From an uncultured Bacteroidota bacterium (GTDB taxonomy: Bacteria > Bacteroidota > Bacteroidia > Chitinophagales > Chitinophagaceae), in NCBI GenBank assembly GCA_903877645.1, contig CAIRES010000068.1, positions 1-64,000 of the forward strand: a DNA stretch of 64,000 nucleotides, given 5' to 3'. Shown piece by piece: positions 57,532 to 62,859 of this stretch. The position numbers and the translations under genes were made by a program. Under the pieces are notes generated by a model, which saw only the letters and a list, made by a program, of their open reading frames with translations, did not search any database and was not told where the DNA came from. Within the stretch, counting starts at the first letter, position 1; every line of letters begins with the position of its first letter.

Positions 57532-59640
57532 ATGAGGACATTAACTCTTTGCACATCTTTTTTAATGATAGGTATGATGGCCAGCGCACAGAAAGTCGAT
57601 TTTACAGGCAAGTATCCTGAGACGAAGAAGGGAACGCAGACCGATGAATACTTCGGCACAAAAGTAAGTGATCCATACCGCTGGCTGGAAGATGACCGGG
57701 CGGAAGACACCAAAAGCTGGGTAGTAGCCGAGAATAGAGTAACCCAAAACTACATCAGCCAGATACCATTCAGGGACAAGATCAAGAAACGCCTGACGGA
57801 GCTATGGAATTATGAAAAATATTCTGCGCCCTTTAAAGAAGGAGCTTATACTTACTTCTATAAAAACGACGGCCTCCAAAACCAAAGTGTTCTGTACCGT
57901 CAAATGGAGGGCGCGGTACCGGAAGAATTTCTTAATCCGAATAAGTTTTCGACGGATGGCACCAGCTCATTGCAGGGCATAGACTTTACCAAGGATGGCT
58001 CACTGGCAGCTTACCAGGTATCAGAGGGCGGATCGGATTGGAGGAAGGTGATCGTGATCAATACAAAGACAGGGCAGAAAGTGGATGATACGCTGCATGA
58101 TGTGAAGTTCAGCGGTATCTCGTGGTTGCATAATGATGGTTTTTATTACAGCAGTTATGACAAGCCAAAGGGTAGCCAGCTTTCTGAAAAAACACAGATA
58201 CACAAACTATTCTATCACAAACTGGGGACTCCGCAAAGTGAAGACAAGCTGATATTTGGTGGCGAGGCTACACCACGCAGGTACATTGGTGGTGGAGTTA
58301 CAGAGGATGAACAATTCCTTGTGATCAGCGCGGCAAACGCTACTTATGGCAACGAGCTTTATATACAAGACCTTACCTTACCAAATTCGCCAATCGTACC
58401 TATAGTCACAGGATTTGATCATGAGCAGAGTGTTGTGTATTCCGACCATGGTATGCTGTACATCGAGACCAACCAGGATGCCCCTAACCGCAAGCTGGTA
58501 GCAGTATCTGCAACGCACCCGACAAAGGAATACTGGAAAGTGGTAATACCTGAGACGAAATTCCCATTGAGTATTTCTACCTGTGGTAAAAAATTCTTTG
58601 CCCAGTACCTGGAAGATGCTGTATCGAAAGTATATCAGTACAGCCTTGATGGTAAAATGGAGAAGGCAATCGAGTTGCCGGGCCTGGGCACAGCAAGCGG
58701 CTTTGGTGGCAAAGTTGATGAGCGGGAAACTTACTATACCTACACTTCGTATGTGTACCCGCCCACTATTTTCAAATACAACATTAATACGGGCACATCA
58801 TCTGTTTATAAAGTTTCCAGTGTCAAATTCAACCCGGCGGAGTATGAAAGCAAGCAGGTGTTTTACAAGTCGAAGGGCGGCGAGCGTATCCCTATGATCA
58901 TCACCTATAAGAAAGGTATGAAACTTAGTGGCAAAAATCCGGTAATGCTTTATGGCTATGGTGGCTTTAACATCAGTATGACACCGTCATTCAGTGTGAG
59001 CAACCTCACCTTTATGGAGCATGGCGGCATCTATGCTGTGGCCAACCTGCGCGGCGGCGGCGAGTATGGCGATACGTGGCATAATGCAGGTATCAAAATG
59101 AAGAAGCAAAATGTGTTCAATGATTTTATTGCTGCTGCGGAATACCTGATCAAAGAGAAATATACTTCCAAGCATTACCTGGCCATATCCGGCGGATCAA
59201 ATGGGGGGCTGCTGATAGGAGCATGTATGACCCAACGGCCAGACCTCTTCAAGGTATGCTTCCCGGCTGTAGGGGTGCTGGATATGCTGCGGTACAACAA
59301 ATTTACGGCTGGTGCGGGCTGGGCTTATGATTATGGGACTGCTGAGGACAGCAAGGAGATGTTTGGTTATCTCTATCATTATTCCCCGGTGCACAATGTG
59401 AAGAAACAGTGCTACCCGGCAACTTTAGTGACCACAGGCGATCATGACGATAGGGTAGTTCCTGCACATTCGTTCAAGTTTGCGGCATCGCTACAGGCTG
59501 CGCAAAGCTGTAAGAACCCCGTGATGATCAGTATAGAAACCAAGGCCGGGCATGGAGCAGGCAAGCCGACAGATATGCTGATCTCAGAGCAAGCAGATAA
59601 ATGGGCGTTTTTATATTGGAATATGGGCCTGACCTATTGA
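57532..59640 (+). CDS. Prolyl oligopeptidase, S9A family (exported)
   Basis: A 702-residue serine peptidase that cuts short peptides after proline. A signal peptide (first ~19 residues, ending ASAQ) precedes the S9 N-terminal segment (DPYRWLEDDRAEDTKSWV), a seven-bladed propeller, and the catalytic domain from ~430. The nucleophile is S556 in ISGGSNGG, the Asp lies in GDHDDRVVP (637-644) and the His is H674 in KAGHGAGK. Overall length matches the family. The next gene starts 7 bases later, so they may share a transcript. Confidence 0.95.
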   Translation: MRTLTLCTSFLMIGMMASAQKVDFTGKYPETKKGTQTDEYFGTKVSDPYRWLEDDRAEDTKSWVVAENRVTQNYISQIPFRDKIKKRLTELWNYEKYSAPFKEGAYTYFYKNDGLQNQSVLYRQMEGAVPEEFLNPNKFSTDGTSSLQGIDFTKDGSLAAYQVSEGGSDWRKVIVINTKTGQKVDDTLHDVKFSGISWLHNDGFYYSSYDKPKGSQLSEKTQIHKLFYHKLGTPQSEDKLIFGGEATPRRYIGGGVTEDEQFLVISAANATYGNELYIQDLTLPNSPIVPIVTGFDHEQSVVYSDHGMLYIETNQDAPNRKLVAVSATHPTKEYWKVVIPETKFPLSISTCGKKFFAQYLEDAVSKVYQYSLDGKMEKAIELPGLGTASGFGGKVDERETYYTYTSYVYPPTIFKYNINTGTSSVYKVSSVKFNPAEYESKQVFYKSKGGERIPMIITYKKGMKLSGKNPVMLYGYGGFNISMTPSFSVSNLTFMEHGGIYAVANLRGGGEYGDTWHNAGIKMKKQNVFNDFIAAAEYLIKEKYTSKHYLAISGGSNGGLLIGACMTQRPDLFKVCFPAVGVLDMLRYNKFTAGAGWAYDYGTAEDSKEMFGYLYHYSPVHNVKKQCYPATLVTTGDHDDRVVPAHSFKFAASLQAAQSCKNPVMISIETKAGHGAGKPTDMLISEQADKWAFLYWNMGLTY

Positions 59641-59647
59641 TAATGAA

Positions 59648-60214
59648 ATGGAAGGCCCTGATTTTGCTATAGTATATTCAGCAGGAATCTCCGGTGCGTT
59701 TTTGCAAAGGGGCATTACTACTTTTCGGGAGGCGGCTGACTACGTTGGCCGCCTTCCTTATGGCCGCAACGCAGACAAGACTGACCTGGCTACAGTATTT
59801 TCTGATGGCTGTGGCACATGTAGTACCAAGCATGCTTTGCTGAAAGTGCTTGCAAATGAAAATGACTTTGACGGGTTGAAACTGATGGTGGGTATCTTTA
59901 AAATGAACCATAATAATACACCGGCTGTTGCCGGTACATTAGGCAAGTATGGGCTGGATCATATTCCCGAGGCTCATTGTTACCTGCGGTATAACAGGGG
60001 GATATTCGATCATACCTTTTCAAATGTGCAGCTTGATTTTGTTGCTGATCTTATGGAAGAACAGGAAATAGAACCGCTACAGATCACAGATTGGAAAGTG
60101 GCGTACCACAAGGCGTTCATCAATAAATGGCTTGCCGGCGATCCGCAAATTGTTTTTTCGGCGGTTGAGATATGGGCGATACGGGAGCAGTGTATCAGGG
60201 ATCTATCAGTGTGA
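59648..60214 (+). CDS. Transglutaminase-like single-domain protein, uncharacterised
   Basis: A 188-residue cytoplasmic protein. It has a plausible Cys-His-Asp triad of the transglutaminase/cysteine-protease fold: C58 in GCGTCSTKHALL at the start of a helix, H110 in PEAHCYLRY on a strand, and D121 in GIFDHTF on the next strand (compare H-x-W...D-P-T in the family). I recognise no named family. It starts 7 bases after the prolyl oligopeptidase stop and ends one base before the convergent AsmA-like gene. Function is unknown; peptide or amide hydrolysis or transfer is an inference from fold. Confidence 0.72.
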   Translation: MEGPDFAIVYSAGISGAFLQRGITTFREAADYVGRLPYGRNADKTDLATVFSDGCGTCSTKHALLKVLANENDFDGLKLMVGIFKMNHNNTPAVAGTLGKYGLDHIPEAHCYLRYNRGIFDHTFSNVQLDFVADLMEEQEIEPLQITDWKVAYHKAFINKWLAGDPQIVFSAVEIWAIREQCIRDLSV

Positions 60215-60215
60215 C

Positions 60216-61955
60216 TTATTTCTTCTTGCCAAATACCCTTTTGAAAAATCCTTTTTTGGGCTGCTCACCTTTACTCGTCTCGGGGCCATCAGTAAGGGTG
60301 ATGATACCCCGTTCGCGTACTGCGGTCTTTTTAACGCCACGGTAAATGTTTTGCCACAGCTCGCCTGCAAAGCCTTTTGTTGTGTCGCGTGCGAATGAGG
60401 TATTTACAGAGCGGACTTCTTTGCCCGGCATTGGGTTATCGGGGTACAGCAATAATGTGCTGCCCACAAAGGCAAATGGCCCATGTTTTCCTTTCCTTTG
60501 TTTGCTGTCAAACTTGAACAATGATATCTTTAAGCCATCATAGAACACAGTGAATTTGCCCGATGAAAAAGACTCATCGCCGGCTATGTGCATATCCATT
60601 TTTGAGAGGTGAAAGGAAGTGACCTTTACAATAGTGAATGCCTGGGCCTGTTCGTTCACTTCATCGCCGGTGAGGCTGCCGATATTGCCATCTACAGTAA
60701 AAGCCCCCTTTTTATTATTCAGTGCCAGGTCGAATTTTGCAACTACGCTGGTCTTGCCCATGTATTTGCCGTCGAGGTCGATGAGGCAGCTTTTGTTTTG
60801 TGCTATCAATCCGGGCATATTGGTGATGTTGCTGAATTTTGCTTTGATGTCGCTAAAATCTATTGTGCCTTCCTCACCTTTTGGGGTTACTTCGGTGTAC
60901 CTGAAGTGCGCCTTGGTCATATTCACCACTCTTAGATCGGTCTGCAGACCCACCTGTAACAGTAACTGATTGGGGTAGCTGCCCATGGCGCTGGCATTTT
61001 TGTTCTCATTCGCCCTGATGAAATGAATATCTATAAATGGCTCTGTTGCGTTTACTGTGGGTATCAGCAATTCGCCATCATTCACCAGTTGGTTCCAGTT
61101 GAGGCCGACAAGTTCTACTTTAGGAAAGGTAAAGTTGTAAAATTCTTTTTCTTTTCCAGTCGTCGGATCATTATCGGTCATATTCTTAATGTGTACACTT
61201 TTTAACGTTACTGAATTGTCGGTACTTTCAAAATCAAGCAGTGGTGAATTGATGTGGTAATGCCCGTTGGGCTTATTCAGTTGAAAGCTTTTGAACCGCA
61301 GCTTACCACTGCGGGCATACAGGAATACGCTAGTGTCTATATGCTCATCATAGTTGTATACAAAATTATTAAGCATGGCCGATCCGCCATTCATGTGGCA
61401 CGAAAAATGGGTTTTAGGGCCAGTGTAGTCATAGGTTACATCCGGGTTGTCAAAATCCACCTTTGCCGCTGTAACACGGGTTATCGTCGGCGTCTTTTTT
61501 TTGTCATGGATGGCTGTTGCCGCATTAGGGTCTGGCCGGCAGGACAGCAGCCATTTGAGGTTGTGTACCGTTACATGTCCGCAATCGACAGAGTGCTTAT
61601 CTACTAAATCGCGCCATACGATGCCATTTGCTTCAAGGCTGGGTATAGACAACGTAGAAAGAGTAGGGGGAACAATCCTTCCGGCTGCTTTTAGTGCTTT
61701 GACCTGTTTCATATCGGGCCATAAGTGAACATCGGTGAGGGTAACCGTATGCCCGGCGAGGCTCACTGTAATGTCGCTGAACGAAATGTGGTATACGCTG
61801 TCTGTAGATTTTAGCACCGCCTCCGGCAAACGAGCCATGATGATACTTTTGTAATGATGTGACAACCACAGGCTATAGGCGAATACGCCCGCTACGATCA
61901 ATAGGAATATGGATATAATGATGATCAGTGTCTTACGCATTCTGCTAACGGCCAT
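60216..61955 (-). CDS. AsmA-like membrane-anchored protein
   Basis: A 579-residue protein with an N-terminal membrane helix (LIIIISIFLLIVAGVFAYSLWL, ~9-30) and a long periplasmic beta-rich region whose repeats (VSLAGHTVTLTDVHLWPDM, FRYTEVTPKGEEGTIDFSDIKAKFSNITN, AKFDLALNNKKGAFTVDGNIGSL) resemble the AsmA/DUF748-type lipid-transport folds. The tail is strongly basic (KKGFFKRVFGKKK). The start could be ATG 61955 or the ATG at 61940. Role by analogy: envelope lipid homeostasis. Confidence 0.75.
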   Translation of the reverse strand: MAVSRMRKTLIIIISIFLLIVAGVFAYSLWLSHHYKSIIMARLPEAVLKSTDSVYHISFSDITVSLAGHTVTLTDVHLWPDMKQVKALKAAGRIVPPTLSTLSIPSLEANGIVWRDLVDKHSVDCGHVTVHNLKWLLSCRPDPNAATAIHDKKKTPTITRVTAAKVDFDNPDVTYDYTGPKTHFSCHMNGGSAMLNNFVYNYDEHIDTSVFLYARSGKLRFKSFQLNKPNGHYHINSPLLDFESTDNSVTLKSVHIKNMTDNDPTTGKEKEFYNFTFPKVELVGLNWNQLVNDGELLIPTVNATEPFIDIHFIRANENKNASAMGSYPNQLLLQVGLQTDLRVVNMTKAHFRYTEVTPKGEEGTIDFSDIKAKFSNITNMPGLIAQNKSCLIDLDGKYMGKTSVVAKFDLALNNKKGAFTVDGNIGSLTGDEVNEQAQAFTIVKVTSFHLSKMDMHIAGDESFSSGKFTVFYDGLKISLFKFDSKQRKGKHGPFAFVGSTLLLYPDNPMPGKEVRSVNTSFARDTTKGFAGELWQNIYRGVKKTAVRERGIITLTDGPETSKGEQPKKGFFKRVFGKKK

Positions 61956-62026: not shown

Positions 62027-62770
62027 CTATTCAGCTTTCGGTACCCGGCCACAACCGGCATAGAAGGTGTGCCAGTAATCCTCATTGAGGCTGCTGATCA
62101 TCACGCCGCCTGATGTGGACGCATGAATGAAGTAATTATTGGCGAGATACACACCCACATGGGTGATGCGCCTGCTGTGTATATGAAAGAATACCAGGTC
62201 CCCTTCTATGGCATCGGTGGGGCGCTTGATGCGCATGCAGGTGCTGAACTGCTCCATTGCAGTGCGCACAAGGTCCATGCCATATACTTCTTTATACAGT
62301 TTCTGTGCAAAAGCGGAGCAGTCGATACCTTCATCACCGGTGCCGCCCAGCCTGTAGTTGGCGCCATACCATTTATCTATGAACTGGTATAAGGAAAAAT
62401 TAGTGATCTCTTTTGGTGTTATGCCTAAAATATCGGCATACTTTTTTTTCACCATGTTCTGGTCTTTTGAGAAACTGATGCCGTCTTTCACTTCCGGCTC
62501 GCGGTGCGCCAATGGAGCATCTTGCGATACTACTCCCGTCCGCCGGGGAGGTGGGGCTGCCACTGTCGCTTTAGGCTTTTGAGGTCTTTTGCGGCGGTCT
62601 ATGGCATCCGTTTTTACATCGCTCTTGTTGTGCCCAGCTATATATACATTGTCTATAAACTTTGGCTGGCGGCTATGGGAATGGGTGGTTTTACGACTGC
62701 TCTCGCAGGCGCATAGCATGGCAATAAAGAAGATGCATACAAGGCAGTATGGGTGTAAGACGCTCTTCAT
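62027..62770 (-). CDS. NlpC/P60 (C40) cell-wall peptidase, lipoprotein
   Basis: A lipoprotein endopeptidase that cuts peptidoglycan stem peptides. From the ATG at 62770 (MKSVLHPYC) it has 247 residues with lipobox LCAC; a frame from 62818 adds 16 residues before the signal. Numbering from that longer frame, the catalytic residues are C167 in IDCSAFAQ, H220 in THVGVYL and H232 in FIHAST. The domain begins WYGANYRLGGTGDEG, the usual Spr/NlpC entry. A basic, proline-rich linker separates lipid anchor and enzyme. Confidence 0.93.
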   Translation of the reverse strand: MKSVLHPYCLVCIFFIAMLCACESSRKTTHSHSRQPKFIDNVYIAGHNKSDVKTDAIDRRKRPQKPKATVAAPPPRRTGVVSQDAPLAHREPEVKDGISFSKDQNMVKKKYADILGITPKEITNFSLYQFIDKWYGANYRLGGTGDEGIDCSAFAQKLYKEVYGMDLVRTAMEQFSTCMRIKRPTDAIEGDLVFFHIHSRRITHVGVYLANNYFIHASTSGGVMISSLNEDYWHTFYAGCGRVPKAE

Positions 62771-62859
62771 CAGCCATTTTGTTATGCCGCGAAGGTAAGA
62801 ATCCTTATGGTCTTGCACAAGGAAAGAAGAAACGCAGGGCGAATGGCGCGCCGGCCGGG

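Follow-up and report, generated by a model that had tools for sequence, protein, structure and literature searches.

The window, here the whole stretch of 64,000 nucleotides analysed from an uncultured Bacteroidota bacterium (family Chitinophagaceae; assembly GCA_903877645.1, contig CAIRES010000068.1), carries a short gene that an earlier, sequence-only reading had described as an orphan transglutaminase-like protein coupled to a prolyl oligopeptidase. The genes and codons concerned are as follows.

57532..59640, forward strand: prolyl oligopeptidase (S9) gene, matching Peptidase_S9_N and Peptidase_S9, with an export-like N-terminus by reading.
59648..60214, forward strand: transglutaminase-like protein gene, ATG start, 188 aa, relatives found.
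59819..59821, forward strand: codon of C58, the putative nucleophile, with which helix 58-71 begins (DSSP on the model); kept by 52/52 members.
59975..59977, forward strand: codon of H110, the putative general base, part of the PEAH motif and of strand 106-115; kept by 52/52 members.
60008..60010, forward strand: codon of D121, the proposed third triad residue, directly past strand 118-120; kept by 51/52 members.
60216..61955, reverse strand: gene of 579 aa on the far side of a variable slot, with relatives downstream of the peptidase in L139, L144, and L150.

The open reading frame and its coordinates, the 188-residue product, the residues C58, H110, and D121, and the two sequence blocks singled out earlier (PEAHCYLRY being one) were all present as described. 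Seven bases separate the gene from that of the peptidase, which ends at 59640, stop codon included. The frame is a real gene and not a chance one, since tblastn against the loci of relatives returned 37-54% identity over most of the 188 residues, two short fragments excepted. No signal peptide was evident by reading, in agreement with the first description; the N-terminus (MEGPDFAIVYSAG...) is without a basic start and hydrophobic run, and the protein is probably cell-internal. The claim that it belongs to no known family also stood: Pfam (E ≤ 1) and PADLOC gave 0 families each, and the best matches in NCBIfam (E 0.1) and among PHROGs (E 0.3) were insignificant. A sequence search of the PDB gave no significant match. 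Thioredoxin-like matches of the protein, at E 0.1 or worse and without fold support, were set aside. Across 21 members of the family, NCBIfam returned isolated, scattered matches (best E 0.0026) that were taken as chance, and no title or abstract opening on the family, or on a fusion of VOC and transglutaminase domains, was found among the literature matches listed. Relatives are numerous, so the protein is not strictly an orphan.

The relatives form an unnamed transglutaminase-like family that is patchily scattered within Bacteroidota. A pattern scan, sensitive to close relatives only, found 10 loci in 84,980 species genomes, all from Bacteroidota by title and one of them a fragment. Searches with the single protein matched 7 of the 395 genomes in a sample of the phylum and 8/60 in a sample of relatives, while a profile search matched 21/294 genomes in a sample of the taxonomic family (19 clearly, 2 near the threshold) and 20/395 in a sample of the class (17 clearly, 3 weak or partial), the window's own genome being included in each of these counts. 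Within the genus, the gene was present in 4 of 34 relatives. The family locus L002 is that of Taibaiella lutea; over 1,000 bases it is identical to L028 from G609, a genome of the same taxonomic family as the window's, which places the window's genome in the family of Taibaiella (Chitinophagaceae). Coverage of other phyla was confined to the pattern scan together with collections of plasmids, phages, and viruses. There was no match in the phage collection or the viral contigs, and a single one (Aureibacter pAT1) among 72,556 plasmid records, so the idea of a phage or plasmid gene was rejected. In Flavobacterium sp. BFFFF2 (L010, 4853-5585), a second copy of the gene was seen, broken into two reading frames and preceded by a VOC-like gene.

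The proposed triad was strongly conserved. In an alignment of 47 members of nearly full length, among them the window's (9 loci from the pattern scan and 38 more, leaving out the two pieces of the broken L010 copy and two loci in which the gene was missed by the ORF caller), C58 and H110 were each present in 47/47 and D121 in 46/47, the sole departure being a Glu in the L086 protein. All three residues are kept by five further members, i.e. the two caller-missed genes (L044 and L054), L016 (without its end), L026, and L158. The combined set of 52, again with the window's protein, therefore has C58 in 52/52, H110 in 52/52, and D121 in 51/52, although some members are near-duplicates (L067/L079 and L074/L089). 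Homologues lacking the Cys, which would have spoken against the triad, were thus absent from this set. Also invariant in the 47 were R40, G56, K61, L79, P107, E108, K150, H154, R179, E180, and I183, and the position of G56 is occupied by Ala in L026 (by reading). Identity to the window's protein reached down to 34% in the 21-member set.

An AlphaFold2 model built from the window's protein and nine relatives (10 sequences) had a pLDDT of 92.5 and a pTM of 0.88. In it, helix 58-71 starts with C58, strand 106-115 contains H110, and D121 directly follows strand 118-120, which is the arrangement of the superfamily: a Cys at the N-terminus of a core helix, a His on a later strand, and an Asp on or beside the next strand. 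The best VIA-align row was PeiW (8jx4; Z 8.6, 122 residues aligned, rmsd 3.1), with further rows to PeiP (8z4f, Z 7.6), an arylamine N-acetyltransferase (3lnb, Z 7.6), TglA (9crn, Z 6.3), and LapG (4fgo, Z 5.7); only 3 of 912 chains reached Z ≥ 8, and values below 8 may reflect a common arrangement. The leading Foldseek rows were LapG, LapG in complex, 3isr, and PeiW, with a best E of 0.04 and no match at E ≤ 0.001. The protein thus matches solved superfamily members overall, at modest scores, and the fold assignment is based on the way the leading rows agree, together with the presence of the triad, and not on any single score. A viral fold library gave a best E of 0.003 but at an rmsd of 14.5, and was not used. 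TglA and 3isr are members of the transglutaminase-like cluster. PeiW, LapG, arylamine N-acetyltransferases (NATs), vasohibin, and menin cluster with transglutaminases according to a published study (PMC10318531). Conservation, the secondary structure of the model, and the fold searches all back the earlier reading of C58, H110, and D121 as a transglutaminase-fold triad, and membership of the transglutaminase-like (papain-fold) superfamily is very probable. The same holds, at slightly lower confidence, for the suggestion of an active enzyme: activity is predicted with good probability from the triad (52, 52, and 51 of 52 members), the pLDDT of 92.5, and the transglutaminase-like fold rows, and catalysis is likely to be by Cys-His-Asp.

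A link to transglutaminase domains at the level of sequence was faint. Transglut_core (PF01841) was the Pfam family touched by most members, but these were 3/21 and weak (best E 0.0064), and the window's protein was unmatched. Shared with PF01841 are a G-x-C opening the helix, an Asp-x-Thr on a later strand, and weak profile similarity; the family differs in its shorter His-Asp span, its PEAH motif, and a C-terminal IREQCI-like motif. The window's own genome has four PF01841 matches, found in open frames that are 525-898 aa long, compared to the 188 aa of the present protein. In hhalign, the 47 members scored 22.0 (probability 3.3%, E 0.013) against ten CxxY-type transglutaminase domains drawn from the window's genome and its relatives, a score reached by column-shuffled decoys in 2/200 and 0/30 cases. 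All groups together scored 19.8, while two other transglutaminase groups, GDCKD (17.0, decoys up to 20.0) and GYCAY (11.4, in a different register), scored no better than their own decoys. The two best profile alignments placed C58 on the catalytic Cys and D121 on the Asp, but the template His on E108, and this invariant residue may be the base instead of H110. The span from His to Asp is 11 residues in the family compared to 15 in templates such as L121. Judging from these spacings, the hairpin could be two residues shorter per strand than in the templates, and with a turn at 116-117 the partner of the Asp would be the second residue after the His in family and templates alike.

Six of the 47 members carry about 125 extra N-terminal residues that match YycE-like_N and YycE-like_C (PF22658/PF22659) above the cut-offs, and for which the closest solved structure is the VOC protein YycE (1twu). 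This domain is not part of the window's protein, and it had no match in the window's genome at E ≤ 0.001. The six fusions form one clade together with a single unfused row, L070 (support 96/60), and since this clade spans the genome families f1, f76, f107, and f109, transfer between families is suggested. A YycE-like VOC protein as the separate partner of the unfused gene was considered and rejected, as YycE-like genes did not co-occur with it (1/14 unfused carriers vs 15/378 other genomes, Fisher p 0.45, the two class draws being taken as the same 395 genomes and three weak or partial hits omitted). In Aureibacter tunicatorum, pAT1 (L158) carries the unfused gene, and a different replicon (NZ_AP025307.1) has a VOC gene whose identity to the YycE-like domain of the fusions is 54.5%. 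On Cronobacter sakazakii plasmids, hits H5-H8 of the fused domain extend into a gene annotated as a GNAT, so YycE-like domains may pair with other transferases too.

Neighbouring genes were compared by clustering across 49 loci, using ORFs from a greedy script that missed the gene itself in two of them (L090 and L096). No neighbour was common to more than 6/49 loci. The widest cluster, of 6 loci, was GNAT-like by reading, in agreement with the Pfam counts, and GNATs made up 7 of the 72 same-strand adjacent genes (by reading). In a control of 130 out of 370 non-adjacent genes of ≥100 aa, 3 matched Acetyltransf_7 among the best 25 of 181 families listed, and with 7/72 adjacent genes against at least 3/130 in the control, an enrichment of GNATs beside the gene was not established. 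Pfam Glyoxalase was found in 2/41 upstream neighbours, which by reading are those in L084 and before the broken L010 copy.

What the protein does can be proposed in outline. A cytosolic thiol enzyme for acyl transfer to, or amide cleavage of, small substrates, encoded by a gene spread by transfer, is the reading preferred here, at roughly even confidence. C58 would attack the carbonyl of an amide, ester, or thioester, with H110, held by D121, serving as the base, and the acyl-enzyme would then be resolved by water or an amine. More tentatively, the substrate might be a small molecule or free peptide and not a partner protein. This is suggested by the invariant R40, K61, E108, K150, H154, R179, and E180, which would fit a specific pocket, by the YycE-like fusion in one clade, and by the failure to find a conserved neighbour. 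With no signal peptide evident and no fixed partner, and with VOC fusions and occasional GNAT or VOC neighbours, a small-molecule accessory enzyme is favoured, although a small-substrate accessory or detoxifying role as such is put at somewhat under even.

The best rows among solved structures are the peptidases PeiW, PeiP, and LapG, and the protein could instead be a peptidase or deamidase of the cytosol with protein or peptide substrates, similar to these or to the McjB-type members of the superfamily. This is rather unlikely. PeiW and PeiP (C71, PF12386), which are pseudomurein endoisopeptidases, give the best VIA-align row, covering model residues 6-152, but at 13% identity and with the last 36 model residues outside the aligned range. 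LapG (C93, PF06035), a periplasmic adhesin protease, is the top Foldseek row with about 120 residues aligned, at 12-13% identity, whereas the window's protein has no export signal by reading. Fold similarity to LapG and PeiW is common to the wider superfamily, and PF06035, PF12386, and PF00797 were unmatched by the window's protein and absent among the 18 families listed for the 21 members. The missing signal peptide, the absence of a neighbour in more than 6/49 loci, and the glyoxalase-fold fusion in one clade all argue against a peptidase or deamidase. PeiW and PeiP themselves act on the pseudomurein of methanogens (PMC10318531).

An acyltransferase of the arylamine N-acetyltransferase type (PF00797), using an acyl-CoA donor, shares the fold and a Cys-His-Asp triad, and many NAT or NAT-like chains align over some 136-150 residues, nearly the whole model and extending to its C-terminal helix (Z 5.5-7.6). 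It is nevertheless improbable. Compared with five NATs from the same class, the family profile scored 10.8, less than the 13.4 that 30 decoys averaged, even though the short alignment pairs C58 with the NAT Cys; the protein is also smaller (188 aa vs 231-234 matched residues in those NATs) and by reading lacks the motif around the NAT Cys, RGGxCxExN. Still less probable is a catalytically dead scaffold that retains the fold only. The superfamily does have inactive members, menin and Rad4 (PMC10318531), but here the full triad is found in 51/52 members, with Glu for Asp in the remaining one, and it is kept at identities down to 34% in the 21-member set.

The remaining proposal, coupling to the prolyl oligopeptidase, did not survive comparison with relatives. 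The peptidase was present in 21/21 sampled genomes of the genus (the window's included), the copies of the 20 relatives being 75-84% identical, while the gene lay downstream of it in 1/21, that of the window (the downstream flank compared was 841 bases for L140 and some 1,500 for each of the rest). Two genomes, G411 and G413, have the peptidase and carry the gene elsewhere. Across the family, one of 41 same-strand upstream neighbours matched Peptidase_S9, and this was the window's own. What lies between the peptidase and the 579-aa gene is a 164-codon reading frame in L139, a frame of about 270 codons in L144, and only 133 repeat-rich bases in L150; the 579-aa gene was not seen in the downstream bases fetched for the other 17 relatives. 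The slot (59641-60215 in the window) thus varies in content with each species seen, holding the gene, other reading frames, or 133 bases, and GGTTRATA-like repeats occur just past the peptidase stop in L144 and L150. Adjacency to the peptidase looks accidental, because relatives have other sequence or almost nothing in its place. A functional partnership in one operon, for which the shared strand and 7-base gap make co-transcription plausible in the window's genome, was rejected as highly improbable given the peptidase in 21/21 genomes, the gene beside it in the window only, its position elsewhere in G411 and G413, and the differently occupied slots of L139, L144, and L150.

The position is better read as the lateral gain of a single gene than as the remnant of an old operon, loss in the relatives being less likely, and the gene appears to be accessory and to have spread on its own by horizontal transfer. 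Third-position GC is 0.457 in the gene and 0.526 in each of the two genes that flank it, with no difference in total GC (0.462 vs 0.467 and 0.457). In the gene tree, where 12 of 44 inner branches are firm, the window's protein pairs with L066, a protein from a different class of the phylum, at a support of 93/51 that does not reach the firm mark. Mobility as a single gene points to a conditional benefit, for example in handling a toxic compound. An unlikely extension would be an undescribed, mobile family of cytosolic thiol enzymes with, in the fused clade, a single-chain Bacteroidota enzyme for detoxification or resistance in two steps, in which the glyoxalase-fold domain would bind or open a small xenobiotic and the second domain would cleave or acylate it. 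Transglutaminase-like enzymes would in any case gain a family with clear motifs but without a model of its own, and the YycE-like fusion offers a lead on two protein families together. Beyond the 579-aa gene, the protein encoded on the reverse strand at 62027-62818 resembles, by reading, a cell wall hydrolase of the NlpC/P60 type and begins like a lipoprotein.
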